Assembly: GCF_015277775.1 (NCBI RefSeq)
Contig: NZ_CP063849.1
Location: 3,596,001 to 3,660,000, forward strand
DNA: 64,000 bases
From: Paludibaculum fermentans
Lineage (GTDB): Bacteria; Acidobacteriota; Terriglobia; Bryobacterales; Bryobacteraceae
Direction: 5' to 3'
Shown: in pieces, positions 25,620 through 53,295 of the stretch
Numbering within the stretch: the stretch's first letter is position 1
How the letters are laid out: each line of letters opens with the position of its first letter
Notes under the pieces: generated by a model
Database searches by the model: none
Told to the model about the DNA's origin: nothing
What the model saw: the letters and a program-made list of their open reading frames with translations, nothing else
Translations under genes and position numbers: made by a program

Positions 25620-25626
25620 AGGAGCC

Positions 25627-27543
25627 ATGAGACTGAGAAGTATCCTTCTGATTGCGGCGCTGCCGCTGGTGTTGATGGGGCAGGCGCGGCGGAATACACC
25701 GCCCGCGGAGACGCCGGCCGCGGCGGGCAGCACGCCTGAGCAGCGGGAAGCGTATATCCGCGAGCACTACACGAAGGCGGAGTATCTGGTGCCGATGCGG
25801 GACGGAGTGAAGCTGTTCACCTCCGTCTATACACCGAAGGACCACAGCCAGAAGTATCCGATCCTGCTCATGCGGACTCCTTATACAGTTGGGCCGTACG
25901 GATCTGAGAACTACACCAGGCGGCTGGGGCCGGCCAGCGAGAAGTTCATGCACGAGGGCTTCATCTTCGTGGGACAGGATGTGCGCGGCAAGGGGAAGAG
26001 CGAAGGGAAGTACATGGACATCCGTCCGGTGAATCCCAACAAGCGCGGCCCGAAGGACGTGGACGAGCCCAGCGACACGTACGACACCATTGAGTGGCTG
26101 GTGAAGAACATCCCGAACAACAATGAGCGGGTGGGGATGTACGGGATTTCGTACCCGGGCTTCTACGCGGCCATGGGGGCGGTGGAGTCGCACCCGGCGC
26201 TGAAGGCGACGTCGCCGCAGGCTCCGGTGATCAACTGGTTCATTGGGGACGACTTCCACCACAACGGCGTGCTGTTTCTGGCGCACGCGTTCAACTTCTT
26301 CTCAAGCTTCGGCCGCACGCATCCGCCGGACGGCCCGAGCCTGGAGCGGGTGGAGATGAAGACGCCGGACTCCTATGATTTCCACCTGCGCACGGGTGCG
26401 CTGGCGAATTATGACGAGAAGTATTTCCACGGGCAGACCGAATTCTGGAAAGAGCTGACGCAGAACGATACTTATAACGACTTCTGGAAGTCGCGCGACC
26501 TGCGGCAGTATGTGAAGAACCTGAAGCCGGCGATGATGAGCGTGGGCGGGTGGTTCGACGCCGAGGATGTGTTTGGGCCGCTGAATCTTTATAAGACGGC
26601 GGAGGCTCAGAATCCGGGCGCGAAGAACATGCTGGTGGAGGGTCCGTGGTCGCATGGCGGCTGGGCCCGCACGGATGGCACGAAGCTGGGCAACATCAGC
26701 TTTGCCTCGAATACGTCGAAGTTCTTCCAGGACGAGATCGAGTACCCGTTCTTCCTCTATCACCTGAAAGGGAAGGGCGACGGCGAAAAGCTGCCGGAGG
26801 CGTATGTCTTCGAGACGGGCCGCAACGAGTGGCACAAGTTCGACGCGTGGCCGCCCAAGGAAGCCAAATGGAAGACGATGTATTTCCACGCGGGCGGCAA
26901 GCTGAATCCGATGCAGCCGGCGGACAAGGCCGAGGCGTTTGACGAGTATGTGAGCGATCCGGCGAAGCCGGTGCCGTTCACCCCCTACATCACTAGCGGC
27001 ATGTCGTATGCGTATATGACCGACGACCAGCGCTTCGCGGCGGCGCGTCCGGATGTGCTGGTGTATCAGACGGAGCCGCTGGAAGGCGATGTGCGGGTGG
27101 CCGGTCCGCTGAAGGCGTCGCTGTTCGTTTCGACGACGGGCACGGATTCAGACTGGGTGGTGAAGCTGATCGACGTCTTCCCGAACGATACAGCGGATCC
27201 GCAGCCGAATCCGGAGAACGTGCGGATGGGCGGCTACCAGATGCTGGTGCGCGGCGAGCCGTTCCGGGGCAAGTTCCGGAAGGGGTTCGACAAGCCGGAG
27301 CCGTTTGCGCCGGGCAAAGTGACCGAAGTGGCGTTTGAGCTGCCGGACGTTTTCCATACGTTCCGTACCGGGCACCGGATTATGGTGCAGGTGCAGAGTT
27401 CGTGGTATCCGCTGGGCGACCGGAATCCGCAGAAATTCATGAAGATTCAGGATGCGAAGGCCGAGGATTTTGTGAAGGCCACGCAGCGGGTCTTCCGGAT
27501 GAATTCGGCGCCCTCGTCGATCCAGCTTTCGACGATCGAATAG
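25627..27543 (+). CDS. CocE/NonD family hydrolase, exported
   Basis: A 638-residue exported hydrolase. The frame is open to 25585, but the ATG at 25627 with GAGGAG before it gives a signal peptide (1-19). The X-Pro dipeptidyl-peptidase-like (S15) domain spans about 45-370, with Ser175 in GISYPG, probable Asp311 in GGWFDAED and His343 in GPWSHGG. A beta-sandwich domain of the PepX C-terminal type follows (about 380-625). The family includes cocaine esterase, glutaryl-7-ACA acylase and alpha-amino-acid ester hydrolases. It is most likely a secreted peptide or ester hydrolase; the substrate is not predictable. Confidence 0.88.
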   Translation: MRLRSILLIAALPLVLMGQARRNTPPAETPAAAGSTPEQREAYIREHYTKAEYLVPMRDGVKLFTSVYTPKDHSQKYPILLMRTPYTVGPYGSENYTRRLGPASEKFMHEGFIFVGQDVRGKGKSEGKYMDIRPVNPNKRGPKDVDEPSDTYDTIEWLVKNIPNNNERVGMYGISYPGFYAAMGAVESHPALKATSPQAPVINWFIGDDFHHNGVLFLAHAFNFFSSFGRTHPPDGPSLERVEMKTPDSYDFHLRTGALANYDEKYFHGQTEFWKELTQNDTYNDFWKSRDLRQYVKNLKPAMMSVGGWFDAEDVFGPLNLYKTAEAQNPGAKNMLVEGPWSHGGWARTDGTKLGNISFASNTSKFFQDEIEYPFFLYHLKGKGDGEKLPEAYVFETGRNEWHKFDAWPPKEAKWKTMYFHAGGKLNPMQPADKAEAFDEYVSDPAKPVPFTPYITSGMSYAYMTDDQRFAAARPDVLVYQTEPLEGDVRVAGPLKASLFVSTTGTDSDWVVKLIDVFPNDTADPQPNPENVRMGGYQMLVRGEPFRGKFRKGFDKPEPFAPGKVTEVAFELPDVFHTFRTGHRIMVQVQSSWYPLGDRNPQKFMKIQDAKAEDFVKATQRVFRMNSAPSSIQLSTIE

Positions 27544-27667
27544 GGAACGGGACAGGCCCCGCGGGCTCCGGCCCAGCGCCCCGCCGGCCGTGGCGAGACG
27601 GTATATTGGTTTGTCGGCGCATTGGAGGGTCATATGCGCCGGCAATCAATATTATCGGTGGGGTCTT

Positions 27668-30418
27668 GTGCGTTCCAAAAATCGTTCCACATTTGCCTTC
27701 GGAGTCTTCGGACGGGCGGCCGTCTGGGGTGTGTTTTTATTGTGCGGCAGCGTGCTGCCATTGGCGGCGCAAAACGGGCCGCTGACGTGCTCAGCCAGCA
27801 CTTCCACAACACGGCCGATCCGGGCCAGCGAGATTGCGGCGCTGGTGGGAGAGATCGAGATCACCTGTACGGGCGGTACACCGACAGCGGCGGGGAATCC
27901 GGTGCCGACCGTCGACGTGCAGGTGTACTTCAATACGGACTACACGGGGCGGATTCTTGGCACGTTTACGGAGACGCTGCTGCTGATCGACCGGCCGGCT
28001 CCGGCGAGCCAGGTGGCTTGCACGTCGAACCCCAATCAGTGCGGCTGGACCGGCGGCACCAAGGGTCCCAACGTCTTCCCTTCGCAATCCCCGGCGCTGA
28101 ATGCGGTCGCGTTCTACGGCATTCCGCTGGATCCGCCGGGCAATGGCGGGACGCGGCGCTTCACGATCCGCAACGTGCGCTTGGATGTTTCGGCGATTGC
28201 CGTACCCACTCCGCCGGCGGGCGTGCCGATTACGGCTAGCGTGAGCATGACCACCGTGTCGGTGCAGAATCCGAACCTGGTGGTGGGCACAGCCACAGCG
28301 GCGGTGACGGTGCAGGTGATGGATGCGACGAGTTCGGCTCCTGTGGACGGCACGACGGGCGCCGGGCTGCCGACCTGCACGGGCGGCACGCAGCAGCGCA
28401 TTGCGAACCTGCGGGTGACGCCCATCGGTCCCTCGCTGCTGGCGCGGACGATCGCCCCCTTCACGGCGACGGATGTCTCGTCGACTCCGGCGGCGCAGAA
28501 CCTGGTGAATACGGTGTACAGCTCGGATTCGGATTTCTACAACCCGAACTTTCCGGCCACCGGCAATATGAATATGGCGGGCCTGGCGCAGTATGGGACC
28601 CGGATCCAGGCGACGCTCAGCCAGCTGCCTACGGGCGTGACCGTGTGGGTTGGCACCGTGCCGGTGACCTATTCGCAGGGCAACCCGGTGGCCAACGGGG
28701 CGGGGCAGCCCCGGGCGCGGCTGGTGACGACGGACCGGTGGACCTTCGCGCCCCAGCCGGCGACGACGATCATCGACGGGATTCCGGTGACGGCCCTGAC
28801 CGTCACGAACGGCAACGCGACCGCGGTGTGGGAGATCCAATTCGCGGGCAATACTCCGGCGAGCGTGGACTTCCCGGTGTGGATTTCGTACCTGGCGAAT
28901 ACTTCGGCGCTGAACCCGGCGCAGGTGAGGATCCAACTGGCGCCGGTGTCGGCGGACAGGACGTCGAGCGACGATGCGCCGATTCCGCGTTTTGTGGACG
29001 ACGCCACCACGCAGCCGCTGTTCAGCCTGCAGCCGACGTGCACGAATGGCTCGATTACGGTTGCGCCGTCGATCACCGGCAACGGAGTGCGCTTCAGCGT
29101 GGACGGGTATGTCTACACGACCGCGCAGAAGTTCAACTGGAGCGCGGGCAGTACGCACGTGCTAAGCGTCAGTTCCCCGACGGCGGGCGCCAACACGAGG
29201 GTGATCGCACTGGGCTGGAGCGATGCGGGCGCGCTGACGCATACGATCAGTGCTCCGGGAGTGCCCACTACTTATACCGCGTTGTTCAAGACACAGCACA
29301 AGCTGACGGCGACGGCCACTCCGGCGCAGTTTGGCGGCGTGTCGGCGAATCCGGCGTCTCCGGACGGATTCTATGACGCGAACACCAACGTCCAGGTGAC
29401 GGCCACGGCCAACTCGGGCTACAAGTTCCTGGGGTTCAAGGGAAGCCTGACGGGCGCCACGAATCCGCAGACGCTACAGATCACGGCGCCAGCGACGGTG
29501 ACCGCGGAGTTTGCGGTGATTGCTCCGCTGACGTCCACCATCAGCGTGACTCCTTCCACGGGCACGGGCTCGAGCCCGACGTTCCAGGCTGTCTACCAGG
29601 GCGCGCTGGGCTACCAGTCGCTGAAATGGGTCCAGATGCTGGTGGCCACGGCGACGGACGGCGGCGGCCAACCTTACTGCCTGATGCATTACGACGTAAA
29701 GGGCCAGGCGTTCTGGCTGTATTCCGACACCTACGGGTTCTTCGCGGGTCCGATTCCGGCGGGGACACACTCGGCTGACCTGGCGGGTACGGACTGCGCG
29801 TTGAGCACGCTGCAATCCACAGTGTCGGGCAACGGGCTGACGCTGCAGTTAAACCTGCGCACGGAGTTCAAGATTGCCGGCAGCCGGAACATCTACCTGC
29901 GCGCGTATGACGACGCGGGGACGGACACCGGGTGGGTGCAGCGGGGTACGTGGACGCAGCAGGCTTCGCCCACGCAGCAGTTTGGGGTGACGCAGGCGAC
30001 GCCGACGGGCTCGTCCCAGACGTTCACGCTGGACTATGTGGATCCGGCCGGCTTCACCGGGATCTCGAAGGGTTGGTATCAGTTCCTGATCGCGGCGGAC
30101 AGTACGGGCGGCGGGCTGCCGTTCTGCTATGTGCACTATGACCGGGCGGGCAACGGGTTCTGGGTGTATTCGGGCGACGTCGGGTTCTTCGTCGGGCCGG
30201 TGGCGCCGGGCGCGGCGTCGAACCTGCTGACCAGTTCGGCCTGCTCGCTGGATGTGGCCAATGCCACGGCTACGCAGTTGGCGGACCGGCTGCAGGAGAA
30301 GGTTCCGGTGGTGTTGAAGGCGCCGATGAGTGGCACGAAGAAGATGTTCATGCGGTCGCAGGATGTGTTGGGCCGCGACTCCGGGTGGGTGCAGGTGGGG
30401 ACTTACCAGGTTCCCTAA
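27668..30418 (+). CDS. array protein A: exported protein with InlB-like repeat and two C-terminal modules
   Basis: First of four tandem paralogues, 916 residues. The frame is open to 27590, but the GTG at 27668, with GGTGGGG before it, gives a proper signal peptide (about 1-34). The N-terminal domain (about 36-175) has IRASEIAALVGEI, CTGGTP, CGWTGG and LDPPG. A middle domain (about 270-455) contains SDFYNPNFPA. A divergent InlB B-repeat-like segment (about 543-617) follows WSDAGALTHTI. Module R1 (about 620-767) contains CLMHYDVKGQAFWLYSD, and R2 (about 768-916) contains CYVHYDRAGNGFWVYSG. The protein ends exactly at GWVQVGTYQVP. No catalytic motif is seen; a surface or binding role is inferred. 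Confidence 0.8.
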   Translation: MRSKNRSTFAFGVFGRAAVWGVFLLCGSVLPLAAQNGPLTCSASTSTTRPIRASEIAALVGEIEITCTGGTPTAAGNPVPTVDVQVYFNTDYTGRILGTFTETLLLIDRPAPASQVACTSNPNQCGWTGGTKGPNVFPSQSPALNAVAFYGIPLDPPGNGGTRRFTIRNVRLDVSAIAVPTPPAGVPITASVSMTTVSVQNPNLVVGTATAAVTVQVMDATSSAPVDGTTGAGLPTCTGGTQQRIANLRVTPIGPSLLARTIAPFTATDVSSTPAAQNLVNTVYSSDSDFYNPNFPATGNMNMAGLAQYGTRIQATLSQLPTGVTVWVGTVPVTYSQGNPVANGAGQPRARLVTTDRWTFAPQPATTIIDGIPVTALTVTNGNATAVWEIQFAGNTPASVDFPVWISYLANTSALNPAQVRIQLAPVSADRTSSDDAPIPRFVDDATTQPLFSLQPTCTNGSITVAPSITGNGVRFSVDGYVYTTAQKFNWSAGSTHVLSVSSPTAGANTRVIALGWSDAGALTHTISAPGVPTTYTALFKTQHKLTATATPAQFGGVSANPASPDGFYDANTNVQVTATANSGYKFLGFKGSLTGATNPQTLQITAPATVTAEFAVIAPLTSTISVTPSTGTGSSPTFQAVYQGALGYQSLKWVQMLVATATDGGGQPYCLMHYDVKGQAFWLYSDTYGFFAGPIPAGTHSADLAGTDCALSTLQSTVSGNGLTLQLNLRTEFKIAGSRNIYLRAYDDAGTDTGWVQRGTWTQQASPTQQFGVTQATPTGSSQTFTLDYVDPAGFTGISKGWYQFLIAADSTGGGLPFCYVHYDRAGNGFWVYSGDVGFFVGPVAPGAASNLLTSSACSLDVANATATQLADRLQEKVPVVLKAPMSGTKKMFMRSQDVLGRDSGWVQVGTYQVP

Positions 30419-30829
30419 GCGAGTAGATTGAGGGTCCGTCCAGGGGGGCGGATTTCCGGATCGAGAGCAGAATGCGTCTCAACCGGGAATCCTGCCCCCT
30501 TTTCTTTTTGACGAATCGGCAATTCACAGGCCGCCCATCGGTACGAGGATATCCAGGATGATTGCGTTATGGGCGGGCTGTCGGAGTAGTCGATAGAGAT
30601 GCCACGGATTCGCCGCATGTGGCTGAATGGCGCTCAGTTACAACGAAGTGAATCAGGCGGGACTGGAATTCACAATTATGAGAGAGGTACGCGCAGCGCA
30701 TTAAACCGCCTTGCCATTCGGAAAAATTGGCCTCTCCTGGGAGCGGAGATTCAGCCCCGAGGGGTATATTAGTTCTTCGGTCATCCGCCAATCGGCGGAC
30801 TTACGGTTTTTCATTTCCTGTGGGGGGAT
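30419..30829 (+). other. 411-base intergenic region between array genes A and B
   Basis: The first 90 bases hold the terminator of gene A. The remainder must contain the promoter of genes B-D. A small inverted repeat, TCCGCC-AATC-GGCGGA, lies at 30784-30799. GTGGGGGGAT immediately before the ATG at 30830 is the ribosome-binding site of B. Short frames on both strands have no start-site or protein features worth calling. Confidence 0.5.
30444..30509 (+). terminator. strong rho-independent terminator between array genes A and B
   Basis: A long stem pairs GGGGGC-GGATTTCCGG (30444-30459) with CCGGGAATCC-T-GCCCCC (30483-30499). It has one G-U pair and one bulged T, closes a 23-base loop and is followed by TTTTCTTTTT. 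It lies 26 bases after the stop of gene A. It should end most transcription of A before B. Confidence 0.8.
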
Positions 30830-33589
30830 ATGCCGACACGAATTCCGATCCCTGGTGCGCGCCTGGCGTGGGCACCCGGATTCACCAGTGTTTTGTTTCT
30901 TTTGATGGCGAGTTCGCTGCCAGCCAGATCGCAAACTTTTCCGCTTTCCTGTTGGAGCTCAGTGGGACCGGCACGGACGATTCGTGCGACGGAGATCACG
31001 GCTGCGGTGGCCGATGTTATTGTGACGTGCCAGAACGGAACGCCTACGGCGGCGGGGGCACCGGTTCCCACTGTAGATTTCCAACTTTATTTCAATACTG
31101 ATGTCACGGTGCGGACGTCGGGCGCTGTCGCGGAGGCGCTGCTACTGGTGGACGATCCGGCTCCCCAGAACCAGCAGGCCTGTCCGGGCGATCCGGTTTC
31201 GTGCGGCTGGACCGGGGGCGCGAAGGGCGCGAATGTGTTCCAGGGGAAAGTACTGGGGCGGAGTGCGATTGCGTTCCAAGGGATCCCGTTGGATCCGCCG
31301 GGCGACGGGAAGTCGCGCACCTTCCGGATGACGAATTTGCGGGTGGACGCGTCGGGGCTGAACCTGCAGGTGCTCTCGGGCGGGCAGGTACAGGCATCGG
31401 TGACGATGACTCCGTCCAGCGGCTCCTCGAGCACCCTTCTGGCGGGTCAAACGCAGCGCCCGATGGAGACAACGGTACTGGAAGCGACTGGACAAATTCC
31501 GCTGGACCCTAGGCAGGGTCTCTGGATCCAGAACTGCAGCAGCCTGTCACAGAGGGCGTTGGCGGCGCTGCAGTTCACGGCTAGCCTGGGCGCTACCTTC
31601 CGAACCAGGACGAGTGCGGCTTTTGTGGATACAGAGACTTCCGCGCCGCCGGCAGCACAGAATGTCCCGGGACACCTGTACGGGTCGGAATCCTTGTTTT
31701 TTGCCCCCGCGTACCCGGCGGTGAACAGGCTGAATGTAGCGGGGCTGGCGGATTCCGGCACTCGATTGAGGGCGGTCTTTTCTGATCTGCCGGCCGGCGT
31801 CACGATTTACGTTTCGACCGTGCCGGTGACCTATACGAACGGGGTTCCAGCGGTGAACGGAGCCGGGCAATTCCAGGCGCGGCTGGTGGCCTCGGAGAAC
31901 GGGGCGTTTGCGCCGATGCCGCCCACGACGACCATTGGCGGGATTCCGGCCGCCGCGCTGGTTGTGAACCAGGGCACCTCCGTAGCGGCCTGGGAGGTGC
32001 TGGCGACGAGCGGATTGGCGGGGGAGACGGCTCAATTCGCGGTGTGGCTTTCCTTCGCGGCGAACAACACTTCAACCGGCGTGGGGACGGTGCGACTGCA
32101 ACTGGGGCCTGTATCCAATGTGCGGTCGGCGGATGATGTGGCGGCCATTCCGCGGTTCTCGGACGATGGGACGGCGGTTCCCTTGTTCAATGTCGCGCCG
32201 ACGTGCGCGGGCGGGCCGTATGTGGTCATGCCGTTGCCACCCGTATTCATGTCCGTCGAGGTGGACGGGATCCGCTACAACAACAATGCATATTTCAACT
32301 GGCAACCGGGCAGCACGCATACGTTGAAGGGGATTCTTCCCACGCAGTCGTCGGACTGGACGAGGCGCCAGTGGATCCAGTGGAGCGACGGAGGAGCGAT
32401 GACGCACACGATTACTGTGCCCGCCACGCCCACCACTTACATTGCTGAGGTCAAGACAGCTTACCGGCTGGATCTTGCAGCCGTCCCTGCCGGCGGGGGC
32501 AAGATTCAGACCAGCCCAACTTCCCCTGACGGGTTTTACCCATCTGCCTGGAACGTCCCGGTCCAGTTGCAGGCGGTAGCGAATCCGGGCTATACCTTTG
32601 CCGGCTTCACGGGCGACCTGAGTGGAACGCAGAATCCGCAACCGTTGGATACGATGTCGGCGCACAAGGTGACGGCGGTGTTTGCCAGGAACGGAAAGAC
32701 ACCGGTCATCCCCAGCCTGACTCCCGTCTATTCGGGTGGGCCCTGGACAGTGCTGAAGGCATCCTTCCAGGCGGCACAGGGTTACCAGTCGATCAGTAGC
32801 GCGCAGGTATTGTCGGCGGCCGCACCGGATGGCGGTGGCGCGCCATTCTGCTTTATTCACTACGACGCGGTGGGCGGCGCTTTCTGGCTTTACTCCGATG
32901 TGTACGGGTTCTTTATGGGACCCGTGAAGCCGGGCGTGGCTTCCAGCGAGTTGCAGGGGTCGGCTTGCGCGCTGAACACGGCGCAGTCCAGCATCCAGGC
33001 GAGCGGGCAAACGTTGGAACTGAGTCTAGCCGTCACCTCCAAGCTCGCGGCCGAGCGAAATGTGTACCTGCGCGCCATGGAGACCGATTCCTCCGACACC
33101 GGTTGGGTGTGGCAGGGCCGGTGGAGCCAGCAGGCACCGCTTGAGGCCGGGCTCAGCGTGTACCCGAATTTCGGGGTGAATTCCATGGAGAACTTTGCGC
33201 TCTACATCTATGGGGCGATCAGCCTGGGCGAGTTCGACAAGGGTTGGGCCCAGTTCCTGGTGGCTGCGGACAGTACGGGCGGCGGGCAGCCGTTCTGCTT
33301 CGTCCACTACGACAAAGCGGGCGGGCATCTGTGGATGTACTCCTCGGACGTGGGGTTCTTCCTGGGTCCGGCGACTCCGGGTGCGCCGTCGAGCCTACTG
33401 GACAGTTCGGCGTGCCAGGTGGAACCGGTAGGGGCCTGGGTCCAGAAGGAGAGCTCTGCGTTGAGACTGGGGCTGCCGATCACGATGAAAGCGACCATGA
33501 GCGGGCCGAAGAAGTTGTATATGCGGACGATGGATGCGATGGGGATCGACTCAGGCTGGCGGCAGGTGGGGACGTACCTGGTGCCGTAG
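30830..33589 (+). CDS. array protein B: exported paralogue
   Basis: A 919-residue paralogue of array protein A with the same layout: signal peptide (about 1-35, ending ARSQ), N-terminal domain with IRATEITAAVADV, CGWTGG and LDPPG, middle domain, InlB-like segment (about 543-622), R1 (about 625-767, FCFIHYDAVGGAFWLYSD) and R2 (about 768-919, FCFVHYDKAGGHLWMYSS). It ends at GWRQVGTYLVP. Its R1/R2 boundary reads DTGWVWQGRWSQQ. Each module keeps two cysteines (PFCF and SACQ or SACA), which could form a disulfide. It heads the B-C-D group. The function is unknown and probably the same as in A. Confidence 0.8.
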   Translation: MPTRIPIPGARLAWAPGFTSVLFLLMASSLPARSQTFPLSCWSSVGPARTIRATEITAAVADVIVTCQNGTPTAAGAPVPTVDFQLYFNTDVTVRTSGAVAEALLLVDDPAPQNQQACPGDPVSCGWTGGAKGANVFQGKVLGRSAIAFQGIPLDPPGDGKSRTFRMTNLRVDASGLNLQVLSGGQVQASVTMTPSSGSSSTLLAGQTQRPMETTVLEATGQIPLDPRQGLWIQNCSSLSQRALAALQFTASLGATFRTRTSAAFVDTETSAPPAAQNVPGHLYGSESLFFAPAYPAVNRLNVAGLADSGTRLRAVFSDLPAGVTIYVSTVPVTYTNGVPAVNGAGQFQARLVASENGAFAPMPPTTTIGGIPAAALVVNQGTSVAAWEVLATSGLAGETAQFAVWLSFAANNTSTGVGTVRLQLGPVSNVRSADDVAAIPRFSDDGTAVPLFNVAPTCAGGPYVVMPLPPVFMSVEVDGIRYNNNAYFNWQPGSTHTLKGILPTQSSDWTRRQWIQWSDGGAMTHTITVPATPTTYIAEVKTAYRLDLAAVPAGGGKIQTSPTSPDGFYPSAWNVPVQLQAVANPGYTFAGFTGDLSGTQNPQPLDTMSAHKVTAVFARNGKTPVIPSLTPVYSGGPWTVLKASFQAAQGYQSISSAQVLSAAAPDGGGAPFCFIHYDAVGGAFWLYSDVYGFFMGPVKPGVASSELQGSACALNTAQSSIQASGQTLELSLAVTSKLAAERNVYLRAMETDSSDTGWVWQGRWSQQAPLEAGLSVYPNFGVNSMENFALYIYGAISLGEFDKGWAQFLVAADSTGGGQPFCFVHYDKAGGHLWMYSSDVGFFLGPATPGAPSSLLDSSACQVEPVGAWVQKESSALRLGLPITMKATMSGPKKLYMRTMDAMGIDSGWRQVGTYLVP

Positions 33590-33660
33590 GGGGCGCGGCG
33601 GATCGGCGTGGGCTCAACGCCCCTAGATTGATTATTCGCTTGAGTAAAAGGCAGCTATTC

Positions 33661-36405
33661 ATGATTACTGGACAGAGGTTTGTTCGACGGCCAGGCAGAG
33701 GGTGGGCGGGGATCCTTGGCTTGCTGCTGGCCACGGCGGCGACGGCGTTCGGACAGTCGACGCCGCTGCAGTGCATCGCCAATTCGGCGACCACACCGCC
33801 ACTGCGCGCTTCCGAGATTTCCGCGCGACTCGGGGAGATTGTGCTGAACTGCTCGGGCGGGACGCCCACACCGCCCGGGCAGGCAGTGCCTACGATGGAC
33901 TTCCAGGTGTACTTCAATGCGAACTACACGGGGCGGACCGCGGGGGCTTTCACGGAGTCGCTGCTGCTGATCGATGAGCCCGGGCCGTTGGCGCAGGTTC
34001 CTTGCACGGGCGATCCCAGCAGTTGCGGCTGGACGGGCGGCAGTCCGGGGGTGAATGTCTTCCAGGGCAAGGTGCTGGCTCCGAATGCCATCGCGTTCTA
34101 TGGAGTCCCGGTGGATCCTCCGGGCGATTTCAAGCAGAGGGTATTCCGATTCACGAATCTACGGATCAACGCCTCGGCGCTGCCGGTTTTAACAGCCGCC
34201 ACCGCGACCATCACGGCTTCGGGGCTAACCGTGAAGCAGGGTGCGGAGATGATCATCGGCTATACCCAGACGGCCATGCGGGCCGGCGTGCGGAATGCGG
34301 CCGGCGACACGACGGTGAACAGCCCAACGGGGATCGAGTTCCCGAACTGCACCACGGTGACCAAGCAGCGCTTTGCGAACCTGCGCTTTTCCGAGCTGTT
34401 TGGGACAGCGCTGCAGGCGCCGAACTGGACCTACGATCCGGTGACCGGCGCCGCGGGCACGCCGAACCGGCAGGCTACGATAGGGACGCTCTACAACACG
34501 GAATCGGGTTTCTATAATCCAAACTTTCCCGCGACCAACAACCTCAATAAGGCCGGGTTGACGGACTCAGGGATACGCATGCAGGCGAACTTCAGCGGGC
34601 TGCCGGCCGGGGCGACGATTTACATTTCGACCGTGGCTGTCACGTATACCGATGGCGTGCCGGCTCCGAGTTCGGGTTCTGTTGAGCAGGCGCGGCTGAT
34701 CACGAGTGCCACGGGCGCGTTTGCACCGGTGGCGGCGAGCGAAACCCTGGATGGAATCCCGGTGGCGGCGTTGCCGATCACGCAGGGATCGGCGACCGCG
34801 GTCTGGGAGGTTGTGAAAGGGAATCCCGGCTCGATCGGGGACTTCGATTTCCCGGTGTGGGTTTCGTTCCCGGGCAATAGTGTGGGGTTGGGCACGGCCA
34901 GCGTCACCATGCGACTGGGTCCGGTTTCGAGTGAGGCGGGCGCGAGCGACACGGCCTGGATGCCACGGTTTGCGGACTCGTCGACCACGTTGCCGCTGAT
35001 GACGACGTTGAACATGTGTCCGGCGACGCAGTACCTGGTGACCACTTCGCCGGCGTTTCTGCCCGTAACGGTGGACGGGCAGAGCTACACATCGCCGAAG
35101 GCATTTCCCTGGCAGCCCGGCAGCACGCATACGATCAGCGTGGGTGCGGCGGTGCCTGTGGGTGTTGGAATGCGGCGGAGTTTCCTGGGCTGGAGCGACG
35201 GCGGAGCGCTGACGCACAGCATTACGGTGCCGCCGACTCCAACCACCTTCACAGCGGGATTCAAGTTGCAGTATTTGCTGGACCTGACGGTGACGCCTGC
35301 GGCGGGTGGCACGGTGACGTTGACTCCGCCTTCCACGGACCACTACTACGATCCGGCAACGAGCGTCCAGATCACGGCCAGCCTGAATCCGCTGTACAGC
35401 TTCGCGGGCTTCTCTGGGGACGTGAGCACGAGCTACTACGATCAGTCGGTGTATATGTCGGGGCCGAAGCGGGTGACAGCGACGTTTGTGAAGGCGGGAG
35501 ATGTTTCTTCCACTGTGGGTGTATCGCCGGCCTCGGGCACCGGCTCTGTTGTGGAATTCTCGGCAACGTATGAAGGCTCGCAGGGCGCGGACAGCCTGAA
35601 GTGGGTGCAATTGCTGCTGGCCGCGGCGCCGGACGGGGGCGGGCAGCCGTTCTGCTTCGTCCACTATGACGTGCAAGGCAATGCGTTCTGGCTGTACTCC
35701 GATGTGTACGGATTCTTCCGCGGCCCGGTGTCACCGGGCAGTTCCTCGACGGAACTGCAGGGCTCCGCGTGCGCGTTTGACCGGGCCCTCCACCCCTATC
35801 CGATCGCAAACGGGCCGAGGTTGACCGTGCCGATGAAACTGTTCTTCAAGACAGCCGGACCGAAGAATGTGTATATGCGAGCGCTGGACATGGCGGGAGT
35901 GGACACGGGCTGGGTCCAGCGAGGCACCTGGATCCAAGAGGTCCTGCCTGCTCCGCTTCTGAACCTCAATGCAAGCACCGGAGGAGCGGCGACACCGTTC
36001 TTCCAACTGGGCATGACGGACCAGTTCAACTCGGAATGGAGATCCGCGCCGCTGGGGTGGGTGCAGTTTCTGATTGCGGCCGACTCCACGGGTGGAGGGC
36101 AACCCTTCTGCTTTGTTCACTACGACCGGGCCGGCGATGGGCTGTGGATGTACTCTTCCGACGTTGGGTTCTTCCTGGGGCCGGTGAAACCACGGACATC
36201 TTCGACTCTGCTGGACAGTTCCGCGTGCTCTCTGGATACGGTCCAATCGGGCCCGTCCGGTTCTTCCTGGATGGGTTTCCAACTCGATCTGCAGCTTTCA
36301 CTGAAGCAGCCGATGCAGGGGCTGAAGAAGCTGTACATGCGATCGATGGATGGGCTGCAACTGGATTCGGGGTGGCAGTTTGTAGGGACGCACCAGGTGC
36401 CGTAG
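33661..36405 (+). CDS. array protein C: exported paralogue
   Basis: A 914-residue paralogue. The frame extends back to 33244 inside gene B, but the ATG at 33661 gives the signal peptide (about 1-31, ending TAFGQ) in register with the other copies. The N-terminal domain shows LRASEISARLGEI, CSGGTP, YFNANYTGR and CGWTGG. The middle domain has SGFYNPNFPATNN; an InlB-like segment lies at about 536-612. R1 (about 617-760) has FCFVHYDVQGNAFWLYSD and R2 (about 760-914) has FCFVHYDRAGDGLWMYSS. It ends at GWQFVGTHQVP. It lies 71 bases after B and 18 bases before D, so the three are probably co-transcribed. Confidence 0.8.
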   Translation: MITGQRFVRRPGRGWAGILGLLLATAATAFGQSTPLQCIANSATTPPLRASEISARLGEIVLNCSGGTPTPPGQAVPTMDFQVYFNANYTGRTAGAFTESLLLIDEPGPLAQVPCTGDPSSCGWTGGSPGVNVFQGKVLAPNAIAFYGVPVDPPGDFKQRVFRFTNLRINASALPVLTAATATITASGLTVKQGAEMIIGYTQTAMRAGVRNAAGDTTVNSPTGIEFPNCTTVTKQRFANLRFSELFGTALQAPNWTYDPVTGAAGTPNRQATIGTLYNTESGFYNPNFPATNNLNKAGLTDSGIRMQANFSGLPAGATIYISTVAVTYTDGVPAPSSGSVEQARLITSATGAFAPVAASETLDGIPVAALPITQGSATAVWEVVKGNPGSIGDFDFPVWVSFPGNSVGLGTASVTMRLGPVSSEAGASDTAWMPRFADSSTTLPLMTTLNMCPATQYLVTTSPAFLPVTVDGQSYTSPKAFPWQPGSTHTISVGAAVPVGVGMRRSFLGWSDGGALTHSITVPPTPTTFTAGFKLQYLLDLTVTPAAGGTVTLTPPSTDHYYDPATSVQITASLNPLYSFAGFSGDVSTSYYDQSVYMSGPKRVTATFVKAGDVSSTVGVSPASGTGSVVEFSATYEGSQGADSLKWVQLLLAAAPDGGGQPFCFVHYDVQGNAFWLYSDVYGFFRGPVSPGSSSTELQGSACAFDRALHPYPIANGPRLTVPMKLFFKTAGPKNVYMRALDMAGVDTGWVQRGTWIQEVLPAPLLNLNASTGGAATPFFQLGMTDQFNSEWRSAPLGWVQFLIAADSTGGGQPFCFVHYDRAGDGLWMYSSDVGFFLGPVKPRTSSTLLDSSACSLDTVQSGPSGSSWMGFQLDLQLSLKQPMQGLKKLYMRSMDGLQLDSGWQFVGTHQVP

Positions 36406-36423
36406 AGGGAAGGTTTTCCATAT

Positions 36424-39153
36424 ATGCGTGCTAACCAATTCTTCAGAATTGCAGGGTGGTTCGGGATTGCCCTGGTGGCGTTGGGGTTGCCGGCAGCGGC
36501 ACAGACACAAGGCGTGAGTTGTTCGGTGGCGAGTTCCGACACTCCTTATCTGGCGACCAGCAATTATGCCGCGCTCGCGGGGGACGTTGTGATCACCTGC
36601 ACGGGGGGGACTCCGATCGCAGCCGGGCGTCCCGTACCGAACGTGGTGGTCCAAGTTGCCCTGAATGCGAATTACACGGGGCGGACTGTGGGTGGGGTTA
36701 CCGAATCGCTGCTGCTGATTGACGACCCGGCTCCGGCGAACCAGATAGCCTGCGCGACGGATGCGGCGCTGTGCGGGTGGACCGCCGGGAGTCCGGGACC
36801 GAATGTCTTTGCGAGCACATTGCAGTCGCCGACCACGCTGGCGTTCCAGAACGTGCCGTTGGATCCGCCGGGCCACGGCGGGTTGCGGCGATTCCGAATC
36901 ACGAACATCCGCGTGGATGCGGCGCACTGGCCAGCACCGCGTCCGGTCTATGCGTTTGGGGTCATTATGGCGCAGGTCTCGATGACTGGAGTGACTATGG
37001 TCATCGATACGGCCAGAATCGGCAATGCCTTTACGGACATCCAAGCGTCGGTCATGGGGGCGAACGGAGAAACACCGGCCGATGCGGCGGCGGGCACTGT
37101 GCTGCCGAACTGCACGGCTACCGCGAACCAGAGGATTTCGACGCTGCGGTTTGCGCAGGTGAGCCCACGGCAATTCCGGCCGCGCAGCCAGGCGCCGCTC
37201 TCCAACGTCGACACGTCTCCGGTGCCTTTAGCACAGAACGTTCCCGGCACGGTCTTCTTTTCGGAGAGCGGTTTCTACAATCCGGGATTTCCGGTTGGGA
37301 ACCAGTTGAACCGGGCGGGACTGGCCGATAGCGGGACGAGACTGCAGGCCGCTCTCTCGGGTATCCCTGCCGGGGCGACTGTTTATGTGGCTACCGTGCC
37401 TGTGACGTTCACGAATGGGGTTCCGGCGCAGAACGCCAATACGGAGATTCAGGCTCGGCTGATCTCCTCAGCCACGGGCGCATTCAACCCGGTGGCGGTG
37501 AGTACCGCGTTGGATGGGATTCCCGTGGCAGCGCTGAATATCGTGAATGGCAACGCGGTGGCGGTTTGGGAGATTCTAGCGAATCCGGCCAATGCGGCGG
37601 TGAATGCGGACTTCCCTGTTTGGATCTCGTATCCGGCGGGGACTCAACCCGGTGCGGTGGCGGTGCGGGCGCAGCCGGGTCCGTCCTCAGCGGTGAACAC
37701 GGCCAGTGACACGGCGCCGATTCCCCGGTATGTGGACGATACGACGGCGAAGGGGCTGTTCGCGATCCGGCCGACCTGTGCAGCCGGACCGTACTTTGTC
37801 ACGACCAACCTGGCGGGCCAGGGCTTCAGCGTCGACGGGGTGGAGTACAAGACCCCTCAGGGGTTCAACTGGACCCCGGGCACCAGCCATACGTTGAGTG
37901 CTATTCCCGCGGCCCAGAACCTGACTTCGTATCGCTATGCCGCCCGGAACTGGAGCGACGGGGGCGCGCCCACGCATACGATCGTGGTGCCTGGCGCGGG
38001 CACCACGTATACGGCGCATTTCCAGCAGCAGTTCAAGCTGGACCTGAGCGCCTCTCCCGCCGATTGGGGTGCGGTGCAGACGGTGCCGGTGGCGGCTGAC
38101 GGGTACTTCGATTCCGGGTCGGATGTGCAGATCAAGGGGATCGCGAACACCGGATATGTCTTTGCTGATTTCCAGGGCGCGTTGAGCGGCAGCGTGAATC
38201 CGCAGACACTGCATGTGACGGGCGCAGGCAAAGTGGTGGCCGAGTTCGCGACGCTGGTGCCGTCGACGAGCGCATTGAGCGTGACGCCGGCTAGCGGATC
38301 TGACCTGCAAGGTCTGTTTCAGTCTGTGTATCGCGGTGCGCGCGGAGCACAGTCGCTGCTGTGGGTGGAGTTCCTGATAGCCGCGGCTCCGGATGGCGGC
38401 GGGCAGCCCTTCTGTTTCGTCCACTATGACGTGCGGGGGCAGGCATTCTGGCTTTACTCCGATGCGTATGGATTCTTCGTGGGCCCGGTGAAGGCCGGCG
38501 TAAACTCCAGCGATTTGACGGGGTCGGACTGCACGTTGAGCACGGCGCTGTCGAGCGTGGATGTCAGCGGAGACCGGCTGCAGTTCAATGCACAGGTGCT
38601 GTTTAAGGTGACCGGAGACAGAAGTCTATATCTGCGCGCGATGGACGACGGCAACTTCGATACGGGCTGGGTGCCGCGGGGCATTTTCAATCAGCATGCG
38701 TTGCCAGTGTCGTATCCAGGTTTGACCCAGCAGTCGGGGACCGGTTCGGTTGAGACATTCCGGATGACAGAGACGGATCCGGTAGGCTTTGGCGGGTTGA
38801 AGAAAGGCTGGGAGCAGTTGCTGGTGGCAGTGGATCAGACAGGGGGCGGGCAGCCGTTCTGCTTCGTCCACTATGACCGGGCCGCGAGCCAGTTCTGGAT
38901 GTACTCCTCCGACGTGGGCTTCTTCCTGGGGCCGGTGGCTCCTGGCACGGCGTCGAACGCACTGGATAGTTCAGCGTGTACGGTGGATACGGCTGCCTCG
39001 CGGGTGACGGAGCGGCCCGATGGGGTGGACCTGGAGATCAAGGTGACGATGAAGCCGGCGATGAGCGGCTTGAAACTGCTGCACACGCGGATCCAGGATG
39101 TGACAGGCCGCCTGTCCTCCTGGGGCTTCCGGGGCACGCACCAGGTTCCGTAG
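36424..39153 (+). CDS. array protein D: exported paralogue
   Basis: A 909-residue paralogue starting 18 bases after C, with GGGAAGG in front. It has a signal peptide (about 1-26, ending PAAAQ) and an N-terminal domain with CTGGTP, NANYTGR, LLLIDDPAPA and CGWTAGSPG. The middle domain has SGFYNPGFPVGN; an InlB-like segment spans about 536-610. R1 (about 612-757) has FCFVHYDVRGQAFWLYSD and R2 (about 757-909) has FCFVHYDRAASQFWMYSS. It ends at GFRGTHQVP, with the usual GW replaced by WGF. The N-terminal motif IRASEI is degraded to LATSNYAAL, so D has diverged most at its front end. Confidence 0.8.
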   Translation: MRANQFFRIAGWFGIALVALGLPAAAQTQGVSCSVASSDTPYLATSNYAALAGDVVITCTGGTPIAAGRPVPNVVVQVALNANYTGRTVGGVTESLLLIDDPAPANQIACATDAALCGWTAGSPGPNVFASTLQSPTTLAFQNVPLDPPGHGGLRRFRITNIRVDAAHWPAPRPVYAFGVIMAQVSMTGVTMVIDTARIGNAFTDIQASVMGANGETPADAAAGTVLPNCTATANQRISTLRFAQVSPRQFRPRSQAPLSNVDTSPVPLAQNVPGTVFFSESGFYNPGFPVGNQLNRAGLADSGTRLQAALSGIPAGATVYVATVPVTFTNGVPAQNANTEIQARLISSATGAFNPVAVSTALDGIPVAALNIVNGNAVAVWEILANPANAAVNADFPVWISYPAGTQPGAVAVRAQPGPSSAVNTASDTAPIPRYVDDTTAKGLFAIRPTCAAGPYFVTTNLAGQGFSVDGVEYKTPQGFNWTPGTSHTLSAIPAAQNLTSYRYAARNWSDGGAPTHTIVVPGAGTTYTAHFQQQFKLDLSASPADWGAVQTVPVAADGYFDSGSDVQIKGIANTGYVFADFQGALSGSVNPQTLHVTGAGKVVAEFATLVPSTSALSVTPASGSDLQGLFQSVYRGARGAQSLLWVEFLIAAAPDGGGQPFCFVHYDVRGQAFWLYSDAYGFFVGPVKAGVNSSDLTGSDCTLSTALSSVDVSGDRLQFNAQVLFKVTGDRSLYLRAMDDGNFDTGWVPRGIFNQHALPVSYPGLTQQSGTGSVETFRMTETDPVGFGGLKKGWEQLLVAVDQTGGGQPFCFVHYDRAASQFWMYSSDVGFFLGPVAPGTASNALDSSACTVDTAASRVTERPDGVDLEIKVTMKPAMSGLKLLHTRIQDVTGRLSSWGFRGTHQVP

Positions 39154-39190
39154 GGTGACCTGAGAGGCGCTATCGGAGCGGGAGTGGTTC

Positions 39191-39229: not shown

Positions 39230-41134
39230 ATGCCTCTTAAGATTACTCGCAGGGCAGTATTCCCTCTTGCCGCAGCCACGGCCTTGCTGCAGGCCCAATC
39301 GCGCCAGAGCGCGGATGTCGTGATTTATGGGGCTACGCCCGGAGGCATCGGCGCCGCCGTGGCAGCTGCCCGGTTGGGACGCTCCGTCATCCTGAGCGAG
39401 TATGCCGACCATATCGGCGGGATCGTCTCCAATGGATTGACCAACGCCGATATCGGCAAGCGGCAGGCGGTAGGCGGTCTGTTCTACGAGTTCACGCGCC
39501 GCGTGTTGGAGGCTTACACCGCCCAGGACAAGGCAAATCCGGCGCTGCAGAACGTGAAGCTGTGCAAGGACGGGTACTGGTATGAGGCCAGCCTGGCGGA
39601 GAAGATCTTCCACGAGATGATCGGTGCCGAGGGCGGGCGGATCCGGCTGCTGCTGAGCCATGAGCTGAAGCGGACGACCGTTCGTTCGAACCGGTTGACC
39701 TCGATCTTCCTGGAAGACCGGGCGAAGCCGGGCTCGCTGGTGGAGCTGACGGCGGGCGCCTTCATCGACGCGACGTATGAGGGTGACCTGGCGGCGATGG
39801 CCGGGGTTCCGTTCAAGACCGGACGGGAGAGCCGGGCGGAGTACAACGAGCCGCACGCCGGGCGGATCTACATGAAGTTCCACGACAGCACGCTGCTGCC
39901 GGGGTCGACGGGTGAGGCGGACGAGGCGACGCAGGCGTACTGTTTCCGGATGCATGTGACGAACGTGCCGGAGAAGCGGATCCCGATCGAGAAGCCGGCG
40001 AGCTACAACCGGGAGGAGTACGCGCTGACGCTGGAGGATATCCGGGCGGGCCGCATTACGAAGTTCCGCGAGGTGATCCAGGTCTACGCGATGCCGAACG
40101 GGCGGTTCGAGCTGAACAGCGACCATGTGCATCCGGACACTGGCATTCCGCGCGAGTCGCTGGATCTGGCGGAGGAGTGCTGGCCATGGCCGACGGCGAC
40201 TCCGGCACAGCGGCAGAAGATCTACCAGCGGTATCTGGACCACAACACCGGCATGATCTGGCTGCTGCAGAACGATCCGGAGGTGCCGGAGGCGCTGCGA
40301 AAGGACGCGAGCCAGTACGGCTGGCACCGCGATGAGTGGGTGAACAACGGGAACAGGCCGCGTCAGGTGTATGTGCGGCAGGGGCGGCGGATTCTGGGCG
40401 AGTACGTGCTGACGGAGAACGACGGGACAGTGGATCCGGCGGTGAAGCGGACGAAGGTGCAGCCCACGTCGATCGCGGTGATCGAGTGGGCGTTCGACCC
40501 GCATGGGCACCACCGCTATGATCCGGCGCATCCGGGCGTGCGCGAGGGCTATTTCTTTGTGGACCACGAGCCATTCCAGGTGCCGTACGGGGTGGTGGTG
40601 CCGCGCAAGATTGATGGCCTGCTGGTGCCGGTGGCGTGCTCGTGCAGCCATGTGGCTTATAATGCGCTGCGGATGGAGCCGGTGTTCATCGTGCTGGGTG
40701 AGGCTTGCGGGGTGGCTGCGCACCTGTCGATTGAGCACAAGGTACCGCCGCGGCGGATTCCGACACGGCGGCTGCAGACGATTCTGGCGGAGCGGCGCGG
40801 GGTGCTGACGTTCTATGAAGACCTGCCGTTTACCGATCCGGACTTCCCTGCCCTGCAATGGCTGGGGGCGCGGGGGTTGAATCCGGGGTACCGGGCGGAG
40901 AAGGCGCAGAAGTTGAGCCGGGGCGAGGCAGCGGACCGGCTGACACGGATCCTGTCGTTTGAGGGAAAGAAGACGGCTGGACCGACGGAAGGGGCGGAAC
41001 TGCCGTTGACGGCCGAAGTGCTGGCGGGTTGGTTGAAGGCGGCCGGTTATGCAGCGGGTAGTGAACCCAACGGGCCTCTGGATGTGGCCGGATTCGCGCG
41101 GATGGTGTACGGGGCGCTGCGGCCCAAGGTCTAG
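39230..41134 (+). CDS. FAD-dependent oxidoreductase, exported (PF12831 type)
   Basis: A 634-residue flavoenzyme. The N-terminus (KITRRAVFPLAAATALLQAQ) is a Tat-like signal, fitting export of a folded flavoprotein. The dinucleotide-binding fold begins at residue 30, with YGATPGGIGAAVAA (33-46), the acidic Glu57 closing it, and HIGGIVSNGLTNADIG after it. IDATYEGDLAAMAG (about 177-190) and SHVAYNALRMEPV (about 473-485) are further family landmarks. No electron-acceptor partner is adjacent. Two homologues lie at 46 and 48 kb. Members of this family are often encoded in polysaccharide-use loci; the substrate is unknown. It converges on the regulator gene with 3 bases between stops. Confidence 0.85.
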   Translation: MPLKITRRAVFPLAAATALLQAQSRQSADVVIYGATPGGIGAAVAAARLGRSVILSEYADHIGGIVSNGLTNADIGKRQAVGGLFYEFTRRVLEAYTAQDKANPALQNVKLCKDGYWYEASLAEKIFHEMIGAEGGRIRLLLSHELKRTTVRSNRLTSIFLEDRAKPGSLVELTAGAFIDATYEGDLAAMAGVPFKTGRESRAEYNEPHAGRIYMKFHDSTLLPGSTGEADEATQAYCFRMHVTNVPEKRIPIEKPASYNREEYALTLEDIRAGRITKFREVIQVYAMPNGRFELNSDHVHPDTGIPRESLDLAEECWPWPTATPAQRQKIYQRYLDHNTGMIWLLQNDPEVPEALRKDASQYGWHRDEWVNNGNRPRQVYVRQGRRILGEYVLTENDGTVDPAVKRTKVQPTSIAVIEWAFDPHGHHRYDPAHPGVREGYFFVDHEPFQVPYGVVVPRKIDGLLVPVACSCSHVAYNALRMEPVFIVLGEACGVAAHLSIEHKVPPRRIPTRRLQTILAERRGVLTFYEDLPFTDPDFPALQWLGARGLNPGYRAEKAQKLSRGEAADRLTRILSFEGKKTAGPTEGAELPLTAEVLAGWLKAAGYAAGSEPNGPLDVAGFARMVYGALRPKV

Positions 41135-41137
41135 CGG

Positions 41138-42436
41138 CTAGTTCGCGGGCAGGTAGCGGTGGGTGACGTAGCTGGAGGTCCTGACGCGGTTGTTCTTGCC
41201 CTCGACTCGAATCAGCACCTGGAAGTAGGGGCCCTTTTTGCCGCGCGGGCCGTTGGGCGGGTCCTGGTCGATGCGGCGCTGAAGGTCAGTGAGGCGATCC
41301 GTGTCGATGGAGTAGTTGGCCGCGCCCTGAGTCGCCCAGGTTTCAATTCCGGATAAGTACAGGATGCGGGTGTTCGGCTGACGGCCGGGCCAGAGGCTGA
41401 CGACGGCGTAGCTGGTGTTGACGCCGACGGTCCCGGTAGGCCGGTAGAACGGCAGTTCGCCGGGCAGGGGGTTCAGGACAGCGAAGCCGCTGCCGGGGCC
41501 ATCGTTGCCGGGATCGAACGGGAACACGTTGGGCCGTTGCAACTGCTGTAGAAGGGTCTGGAAGCGCGCGGAGGAGACGACGACCAGGTTCTTGTTTTCG
41601 ATATCCGAAAGTCCCAGATAGTTCGAGTTGGCGACGGTGGTCTGGACGCCTCTGTCTTGCAGCCAATTCGCCACGTGGTGGGTCCCGATGGCGTCGCCAA
41701 TGCCGGTGTAGACGTCTTCCTGGGGGCGGAACGTGTAGCCCAGAACGTCGCCGAGGTGTTTGACGCGGCGGGTATCCTCGAAGATCGTATTCACCGCGGT
41801 GTCGCGCACGAAGAAGCCGCTGCCGCCGGCGAAGAAGAGGGGTACGCCGAAACTGACGACGGTCTCAGCCTTGGAGTCGATGACTGCGCCCCACAGGGCA
41901 GCGGAGGCGGGTTTGCGCGGCCAGCGGTCGCGGTTGAGCCAGAGGGCGACGAGGGTCACGAGTAACGCGCCCAGCGCCATGCCCGTGAGCAGGGCCGGCC
42001 AGTAACGTCCCCCTCCAAGCTGTTGAACTGGCAGGTCTTCCGCTTGCGGTAACACGGCCGGCTCGACACCCAGAGCAGCGTTTTTCGCCGGGACAAACCG
42101 CGCCGTATAGCCGCCGCGGGGTAACTCGATGCGGAGGACAGAATCGCGGCCCTCGTGCTCGTAGTAGTCGGCCAGGCGCTTACGGAGGAGACTGGCCTGG
42201 ACACGGACGATGGCGTCGTTGCGGGGGTCGTAATCGGGCGGGCGATTGAATACCTGGAGGCCCAGAATGTACTCTTTGAGCCCATCTTCGCGCCCGGCAA
42301 GGGTTTCGTGGACGGCGTGAGACAGCAGGGCGCACAACTGCTTGGACTCACGCAGAAACCGGCTCTGGAGGATCCGGTCGAGTTCCGCGAGGGCTACCGA
42401 GTGCCATGCAGGGGCTTCGGAAGTGCCTGACGTCAT
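41138..42436 (-). CDS. membrane-anchored predicted regulator with winged-helix-like N-terminus
   Basis: A 432-residue protein with one membrane helix (about 145-168). The cytoplasmic N-terminus (about 15-115) has the pattern GLKEYILGLQVF, VRVQASLLRKRLADYY and RIELPRGGYTARF. This module is common in Acidobacteria and resembles a winged-helix DNA-binding domain. The part outside the membrane (about 175-432) has VYTGIGDAIGTHHVANWL and a C-terminal GIETWATQGAANY. The layout is like CadC/ToxR one-component regulators. The gene is divergent from the TonB receptor, with 83 bases between start codons, so control of that receptor by a periplasmic ligand is a reasonable inference. DNA binding is not proven. 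Confidence 0.7.
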   Translation of the reverse strand: MTSGTSEAPAWHSVALAELDRILQSRFLRESKQLCALLSHAVHETLAGREDGLKEYILGLQVFNRPPDYDPRNDAIVRVQASLLRKRLADYYEHEGRDSVLRIELPRGGYTARFVPAKNAALGVEPAVLPQAEDLPVQQLGGGRYWPALLTGMALGALLVTLVALWLNRDRWPRKPASAALWGAVIDSKAETVVSFGVPLFFAGGSGFFVRDTAVNTIFEDTRRVKHLGDVLGYTFRPQEDVYTGIGDAIGTHHVANWLQDRGVQTTVANSNYLGLSDIENKNLVVVSSARFQTLLQQLQRPNVFPFDPGNDGPGSGFAVLNPLPGELPFYRPTGTVGVNTSYAVVSLWPGRQPNTRILYLSGIETWATQGAANYSIDTDRLTDLQRRIDQDPPNGPRGKKGPYFQVLIRVEGKNNRVRTSSYVTHRYLPAN

Positions 42437-42519
42437 TGGCCCATAACCGTTAATTGACCTGAAATTAGCCTAAGTGGAACAGCCCGTCCACGTAGACTTG
42501 GCCCCGAGGAGCTGAATCT

Positions 42520-45984: not shown

Positions 45985-46006
45985 TAACCTGAGCGAGGAT
46001 CCATCC

Positions 46007-47665: not shown

Positions 47666-47683
47666 TACCTCAAGGAAGAACCT

Positions 47684-52748: not shown

Positions 52749-52749
52749 A

Positions 52750-52766
52750 GATACTATAGGGGTATC
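52750..52766. promoter_or_regulatory. inverted repeat, candidate PadR operator
   Basis: GATAC and GTATC flank 7 bases directly before the PadR start codon. The dyad covers the predicted transcription start and touches the -10 box, an ideal place for autorepression by PadR, which binds short inverted repeats as a dimer. Confidence 0.5.
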
Positions 52767-52792
52767 ATATCGATGCCTGAACGAGAGGGCAA
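52764..52792 (-). promoter_or_regulatory. candidate promoter of the PadR/ADOP unit
   Basis: On the minus strand TTGCCC (52792-52787) and TATGAT (52769-52764) are exactly 17 bases apart. Transcription would begin about 8 bases before the PadR ATG, leaving almost no leader. Confidence 0.5.
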
Positions 52793-52841
52793 GCCTCAAC
52801 TGTGTTTCGAGGAATTCGTTACAAGAGTCGACGGCGGGGGG

Positions 52842-53255: not shown

Positions 53256-53295
53256 GGAGTACTCATCAGGATAGCAGCCGTTCCGCGATTCCTCT

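Follow-up and report, generated by a model that had tools for sequence, protein, structure and literature searches.

We asked what four large paralogous genes, lying head to tail in a 64,000-base stretch of the Paludibaculum fermentans chromosome, encode and why the bacterium keeps them side by side. The stretch (the window) is C1:3596001-3660000 of the 9,476,802-base chromosome C1, and the array spans its positions 27668-39153 on the plus strand; coordinates of array genes, modules and flanking genes are window positions. After combining genome comparisons with structure predictions, we lean towards regarding these genes, W1 to W4, as a lineage-specific family of exported, surface-displayed, adhesin-like proteins that share an exchangeable C-terminal display module and evolve by birth and death. 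The sequence itself shows the architecture, the paralogy, the shared tail, whether copies are present or absent at the locus, and a recombinant gene that this species has in common with a relative. A word search of the open-licence PMC literature found nothing on the array proteins.

Architecture of the array proteins and their tail

W1 (27668-30418; 916 amino acids from a GTG start, in a longer frame with a possible upstream GTG at 27590), W2 (30830-33589; 919 amino acids), W3 (33661-36405; 914 amino acids counted from the ATG) and W4 (36424-39153; 909 amino acids) can be aligned end to end with an overall identity of 45-50% (36-57% per module). Such an order and whole-length similarity in four proteins of about 910 residues is far beyond chance. 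An earlier first-pass annotation of this DNA had described four head-to-tail paralogues with one domain order, and the open reading frames (ORFs), identities and alignment confirmed it; its four near-equal copies are near-equal in length, but only about half identical in sequence. The spacers W1/W2, W2/W3 and W3/W4 measure 411, 71 and 18 bp. Therefore, nothing large is interspersed among the copies, and the claim that no enzyme, transporter or regulator interrupts them was upheld.

All four proteins begin with a signal-peptide-like start, followed by a head of about 423 residues consisting of an N-terminal domain (NTD) and a middle domain (MID), with a predicted adhesin-like two-domain beta fold (W1 27773-29041, W2 30935-32206, W3 33757-35019, W4 36505-37779). 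Next come a conserved VDG module of about 87 residues (W1 29042-29302, W2 32207-32467, W3 35020-35277, W4 37780-38037), which the domain order given in the annotation had overlooked while being otherwise correct, and an InlB-like repeat, PF18998 (W1 29303-29527, W2 32468-32698, W3 35278-35502, W4 38038-38262). The proteins end with two tail repeats, R1 (W1 29528-29962, W2 32699-33133, W3 35503-35940, W4 38263-38697) and R2 (W1 29963-30415, W2 33134-33586, W3 35941-36402, W4 38698-39150), the latter reaching the last residue. PF18998 was the sole family seen by Pfam in W1-W4, with copies 1-3 above the gathering score of 23.6 bits and copy 4 at 18.1. There is one such repeat per protein, over the cut-off in three of the four, but it spans only about 70 of some 915 residues. 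NCBIfam returned no family at E ≤ 1 for any of the four window proteins. The PDB was searched by sequence with W4 alone, again without a match. Profile searches, which the annotation had put forward as a check, placed the window proteins in no enzyme family; Pfam named no carbohydrate-binding family in them, and neither Pfam nor NCBIfam named a known anchor domain. An LPXTG motif with a hydrophobic tail is not present, the four proteins ending in GTYQVP, GTYLVP, GTHQVP and GTHQVP.

The tail extends well past the array. An R1+R2 profile gave 28 full-length matches in the P. fermentans genome (E ≤ 1e-72), and the match ended at the last residue in 25 of the 28 ORFs, no more than three residues from it in 27, and 13 residues from it in one. 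This agrees with the annotation's remark that the N- and C-terminal modules recall domains recurring in other Solibacter-type secreted proteins. Going beyond it, the sequence evidence indicates that the last two modules are one tail ending 28 proteins, and that copies are gained and lost and heads and tails recombined within the arrays. A signal-peptide-like start is present, by a rough hydrophobicity rule, in 24 of the 28, W1-W4 included. Upstream of the tail stand RCC1 repeats in 14 proteins and the W-family head in seven. A search with W4 found the full head-to-tail architecture in these seven, namely W1-W4 in the window, the pair B2 and B1 (1919760-1925324, minus strand) and C (7921-10608); at 6989239 lies an eighth protein, whose only shared part is a distant head. 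DUF11 passed the cut-off in 11 of the 26 tail proteins scanned with Pfam (all except B1 and B2), mostly RCC1 ones, and one tail protein is an astacin protease with DUF11. The other parts preceding the tail are BACON with DUF11, DUF7948/SBBP, InlB-like and Soli_cterm-type. The best-scoring Pfam stretch never fell inside the tail in the 26 proteins scanned, and NCBIfam gave no match there in the five it was applied to. Through the tail, a class of 28 proteins whose shared part these scans left unnamed becomes open to testing. Among proteins outside the 28, two Pfam matches over the cut-off did lie within R repeats, Big_9 in L118 and, across 27 residues, Imm21 in L136; we take the former as a general immunoglobulin (Ig) hint and the latter as chance.

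Soli_cterm (TIGR03437) resembles R1-R2 in being named for its C-terminal place and in being repeated across the genome (39 matches). However, NCBIfam found no match to it at E ≤ 1 in the window proteins, and it stands upstream of R1-R2 in both L115 proteins. Across 256 distinct R repeats, one cysteine column was conserved in 243 of the 246 filled positions and the other in 246 of 248, which suggests that the conserved pair may form a disulfide. An isopeptide bond in R was considered and rejected, lysine occupying the column concerned in just 124 of 251 repeats.

Some tail-bearing sequences in this genome look degraded. One VDG/InlB-like/tail protein near 2.90 Mb (L116 57-6156) is split over three ORFs and may be frameshifted or a pseudogene. 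Possible gene remnants are a 100-aa ORF carrying part of R2 (8381131-8381403) and a 354-aa tail protein (L117 2763-3827) that lacks a signal-peptide-like start.

Copy number, recombination and selection

Comparison of array size across relatives, also proposed by the annotation, gave four copies at this locus in P. fermentans, one in an Acidobacteria metagenome-assembled genome (G145) and none in G100, both of the latter being congeners. The left flanking gene (25585-27543, plus strand; S15 X-Pro dipeptidyl-peptidase family) is syntenic in both relatives. In G100, its counterpart adjoins that of the right flanking gene (39230-41134, plus strand; FAD-dependent oxidoreductase, PF12831) at a distance of about 90 bp, the two being 88% each, and, going by where the alignments of the two flanks stop, the missing segment corresponds approximately to 27540-39173. 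In G047 and G127, the genes left of the array are present, and the fetched stretches hold no W match in some 10 kb beyond them. G145 carries four tandem copies, a, b, c and d, at L031/L121 (L031 being a single locus from a genome-contig scan) and one copy, s, on C15, which is the syntenic counterpart of W1 (L122 9126-11942, 76%). At the window locus, G145 has this W1 counterpart only, adjoining an inverted block whose outermost genes are the counterparts of 39230-41134 and 53296-55002; one breakpoint of the inversion (L122/L141) falls directly after the W1 counterpart. According to the ORF lists, the four-gene locus of G145 and the B2/B1 pair at 1.92 Mb have ORFs in common on one side.

In the tree, W1/s, B1/b, B2/c, W2/a and W3/d paired with support of 100/100 each, whereas W4 and C found no partner among the five G145 copies. 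Amino acid identities were 76%, 81%, 84%, 60% and 66%, and Nei-Gojobori (NG86) synonymous divergences (dS) were 0.77, 0.79, 0.65, 1.92 and 1.49, respectively. For nine flanking genes, dS was 0.48-1.19 in eight and 1.48 in the ninth (53296-55002); the row of 20181-22040 (frame out of step, 9% identity) and the 4-fold row of 52623-53519 (47 sites) were left out. One-to-one orthology of all copies with G145 was rejected, as the dS of W2/a and W3/d exceeds that of the other pairs and of eight of the nine flanking genes. In our reading, these two pairs are older paralogues, differentially retained by the two species, although they may instead be true orthologues that evolve fast, given the equally diverged ninth flanking gene. 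The excess of 4-fold site identity over a codon-family shuffle was 0.12 for W1/s, similar to that of W1/W2 to W1/W4 (0.11-0.14). Because this is no better than among paralogues, the orthology of W1 and s rests on synteny, the tree and dS.

One gene appears to be a recombinant. In a tree of the heads, B2/c grouped with W3/d (100/99), and in a tree of the rest of the protein it grouped with B1/b (99/98). Forcing the alternative grouping was rejected by the approximately unbiased (AU) test (p-AU 4e-5 with heads, 0.006 with tails), although the groups were named after the trees had been seen and these p values are optimistic. The G145 gene order is b-c-d, so that a gene with a d-like head and a b-like tail lies between b and d, exactly as unequal crossing-over of the neighbours b and d predicts. 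That c/B2 is such a head/tail chimera is the best-supported account of how the arrays grow, the crossing-over event itself being inferred. Among present neighbours, 60-column windows of the three clearest pairs (W1/s, B1/b and B2/c) revealed no module swapping over the threshold.

The annotation had further suggested selection for diversified binding, which the pairwise substitution rates do not show. NG86 dN/dS values were 0.161/0.767 for W1/s, 0.118/0.794 for B1/b and 0.096/0.653 for B2/c, giving ratios of 0.15-0.21, and the ratio stayed below 1 in every module, though dN of these pairs (0.096-0.161) exceeds that of eight of the nine flanking genes (0.019-0.073; 0.352 in 53296-55002). These pairs are thus under purifying selection, with change faster than in most of their neighbours. 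The fastest-changing module differs by pair; the head is slow in W1/s, and the NTD is faster in B1/b and B2/c.

Predicted folds and possible functions

The export and folds of these proteins are predictions. A full-length AlphaFold2 (AF2) model of W1, built from an alignment of eight sequences (four from the window and four from L031), was all-beta except for the signal region, with a predicted local distance difference test (pLDDT) of 72.6 and a predicted template modelling score (pTM) of 0.41; a head-only model reached 75.7 and 0.72. When the head was compared with the PDB by VIA-align, the C-terminal domains of the antigen I/II proteins SpaP, BspA, SspB and AspA led (Z 9.2-9.9, 260-274 residues aligned, root-mean-square deviation (rmsd) 4.3-5.3), against a typical best Z of 7-8 without a clear match according to the tool's note. 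The best row was 3opu (Z 9.9, rmsd 4.3, 274 aligned, 5% identity), a resemblance of fold alone; 5dz9, 2wza, 4ofq, 2woy, 5dza and 4z23 scored Z 9.2-9.7, and two other antigen I/II entries scored 8.3 and 7.0. The NTD model resembled the CLIPPER domain 9ifr of a Gram-negative fibrillar adhesin (Z 9.3, rmsd 2.8, 116 aligned). Foldseek placed PrgB first for the head, with FnBPA, SdrG, ClfA, ClfB, SdrE and integrins at E ≤ 0.001 and query TM-scores of 0.14-0.38. The R1 model resembled Ig V domains (Z about 9 over about 112 aligned residues, rmsd about 3). Hence the beta-sandwich folds that the annotation had named as supporting evidence were indeed predicted, both the head and R1 models being Ig-like.

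Like the antigen I/II C-terminal region, the whole W head is modelled as two consecutive Ig-like beta sandwiches. However, identity in the structural alignments is 5-11%, and the W proteins lack the LPXTG anchor and belong to a Gram-negative host. No column was lysine in all eight heads (the best had six of eight, W1 being without it), and six cysteines are invariant in all eight instead; the W heads are therefore not expected to form the isopeptide bonds known from antigen I/II. A second comparison is with fibrillar adhesins. DUF11 is reported to be an isopeptide-bonded stalk domain of fibrillar adhesins, and domains of this kind to co-occur with sorting or anchoring domains (PMC12617251). 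The W family shares with these CLIPPER (DUF11) adhesins the domain-shuffled beta-sandwich string and the C-terminal display module, and DUF11 occurs in the 11 tail proteins mentioned above. In contrast, Pfam found no DUF11/CLIPPER (PF01345) match at E ≤ 1 in W1-W4, which also lack an anchor domain named by Pfam or NCBIfam. Of the traits of the fibrillar-adhesin class, an export-type start and a long domain string were seen in W1-W4, whose binding head and anchor are putative.

We therefore favour an adhesin-like function for W1-W4, in which the disulfide-rich two-domain head would bind, perhaps to polysaccharide, mineral or neighbouring cells, the VDG/InlB-like part would serve as a linker between head and tail, and the R1-R2 tail, as on the other proteins of its class, would probably hold the protein at the cell surface. 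Arrays would gain, lose and remodel copies through unequal recombination between neighbours, leaving sister species with different head sets on a constant chassis. The array would then likely give the cell a sticky coat that can change. Acidobacteria abound in soils, yet little is known about their protein display and surface attachment. The locus provides a clean case, in free-living soil bacteria, of adhesin-like genes whose number at one place ranges among congeners from none through one to several, with a recognizable crossover product among their relatives.

Several observations weigh against this view. Integrins and pilins rank closely behind the antigen I/II rows for the head model, and scores around Z 9-10 can arise from a beta-sandwich arrangement that is common among proteins. 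Ig-like tandems are also known in non-adhesive secreted proteins. No module has a pairwise dN/dS above 1. Four tail proteins (L113_2095, L114, L116_2686 and L117) lack a signal-peptide-like start by the hydrophobicity rule, R matches are internal in several proteins of distant families, and in G100 an R1-R2 pair lies at residues 53-340 of an 811-aa protein (L124 5375-7810) and is followed by a beta-helix. Finally, the binding and localization of the W proteins, like their anchoring and ligand, are inferred; of the annotation's proposal that they are surface or secreted binding proteins, the export-type start and the Ig-like beta-sandwich modules of binding type stand.

Two explanations concern the tail. 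One, which we put forward tentatively as possible, is that R1-R2, as a tandem pair of disulfide-bonded Ig-like domains, serves Bryobacteraceae as a C-terminal sorting or surface-anchoring device, so far without a name, which would direct exported proteins to the surface. Its cargo would be propellers, DUF11 stalks, a protease and adhesin heads, and arrays would act as recombination nurseries in which unequal crossing-over sets new heads on a constant tail. A parallel for such tail-directed display is the type 9 C-terminal domain of Bacteroidota, and the C-terminal place on diverse exported proteins, as expected of a sorting domain, was found in this genome. The other, which we find rather doubtful, is that the W proteins are secreted, unanchored helpers that bind polysaccharide or mineral, with the Ig-like string as a spacer and R1-R2 as a ligand-binding or stabilizing cap without any sorting role. 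In favour of it are the Ig-like character of the R repeats, their conserved cysteine pair and their number in other genomes, one to seven copies, which fits stacking repeats better than a fixed signal. Polysaccharide use, including cellulose, was also deduced for P. fermentans P105T by pathway analysis (PMC8407742). However, the R1+R2 pair is terminal in almost all 28 proteins, behind unrelated upstream parts that include a protease, and the Pfam scan of W1-W4 speaks against carbohydrate-binding helpers.

Other explanations concern the array itself. A horizontally acquired or mobile island between two housekeeping genes would account for the clean empty site in G100 and the patchy presence in the genus, but we consider it unlikely. 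The G+C content of the array matches that of the window, an Rfam scan of the window gave no match, W4 had none among phage or plasmid records, and no target-site duplication was noticed in the printed flanks, where no systematic search was made. Moreover, s occupies the same place in G145 with a dS within the range of the flanking genes, so the locus was probably occupied before the G145 split, and loss explains the G100 site equally well. Gene dosage, likewise suggested by the annotation and taken here as the retention of several copies of one function for high expression, would suit four same-direction genes of near-equal length, the last two 18 bp apart. It is very improbable, since copies with 45-50% identity and near-saturated silent sites are old and not dosage copies. 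Third codon positions among W1-W4 are 41-49% identical, 4-fold sites of the six W pairs exceed a codon-family shuffle by 0.6 to 7.7 points of identity (z 0.2-3.6), and NG86 dS of these pairs is 0.99-1.43; recent duplication is disfavoured by the same values. Nor was any paralogue closer than the orthologue in the 60-column windows of the three clearest pairs.

Distribution in other genomes and neighbouring features

In the family sample, the R1+R2 profile occurred in at least 81 of 150 genomes (up to 15 candidates scored per genome) and the head profile in at least 123 of 150 (up to 11). In the phylum sample, R was found in at least 13 of 396 genomes (up to 10 candidates scored) and the head in at least four of 396 (up to four); P. 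fermentans is counted in each. Full R1+R2 matches at E ≤ 1e-70 numbered 28 in P. fermentans, 20 plus one cut at a contig end in G145, and one in G100; G047 and G127 had none at this threshold, weaker matches alone being present. Outside the genus, the top tail matches among the candidates scored were two G137 proteins (E 1e-105 or less). The last R copy ended within five residues of the stop in 74 of 88 distinct ends, that is, 29 of 30 in P. fermentans (a set that takes in loci L036, L038, L152 and L180) and 45 of 58 in other genomes. The only close R1-R2 pair of G100, in its L124 protein, stands near the N-terminus, opposite to the usual place.

A G127 protein (L123 2005-4989) has the head and the VDG module and no R1 match. 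By eye, its VDG module is followed by one InlB-like and one BACON-like stretch and by repeats built around GDWNGDG. Therefore, head and tail are separable. The L114 protein has a 64% counterpart in G145, adjoining a tail match, and no long match in G100; this comparison does not separate tail from body. In G052, which belongs to another genus, two tandem 644-aa head-family proteins (L135 3914-5848 and 6090-8024) score identically with the profile and look like the products of a recent tandem duplication.

A promoter and terminator scan gave nothing in excess of shuffles. Adjoining the array, positions 39230-49771 hold three FAD-dependent oxidoreductases (PF12831) and an OMP_b-brl_4 outer-membrane protein (42520-45984). 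Further right, the genes 52623-53519 and 53296-55002 are 58-64% identical to their G145 counterparts, compared with 92% for the gene before them. On the left side of the window, 13789-18834 encodes a 1681-aa multidomain exported-type protein that combines DUF642 and BACON with a match to Soli_cterm (genome positions 3611937-3612608).

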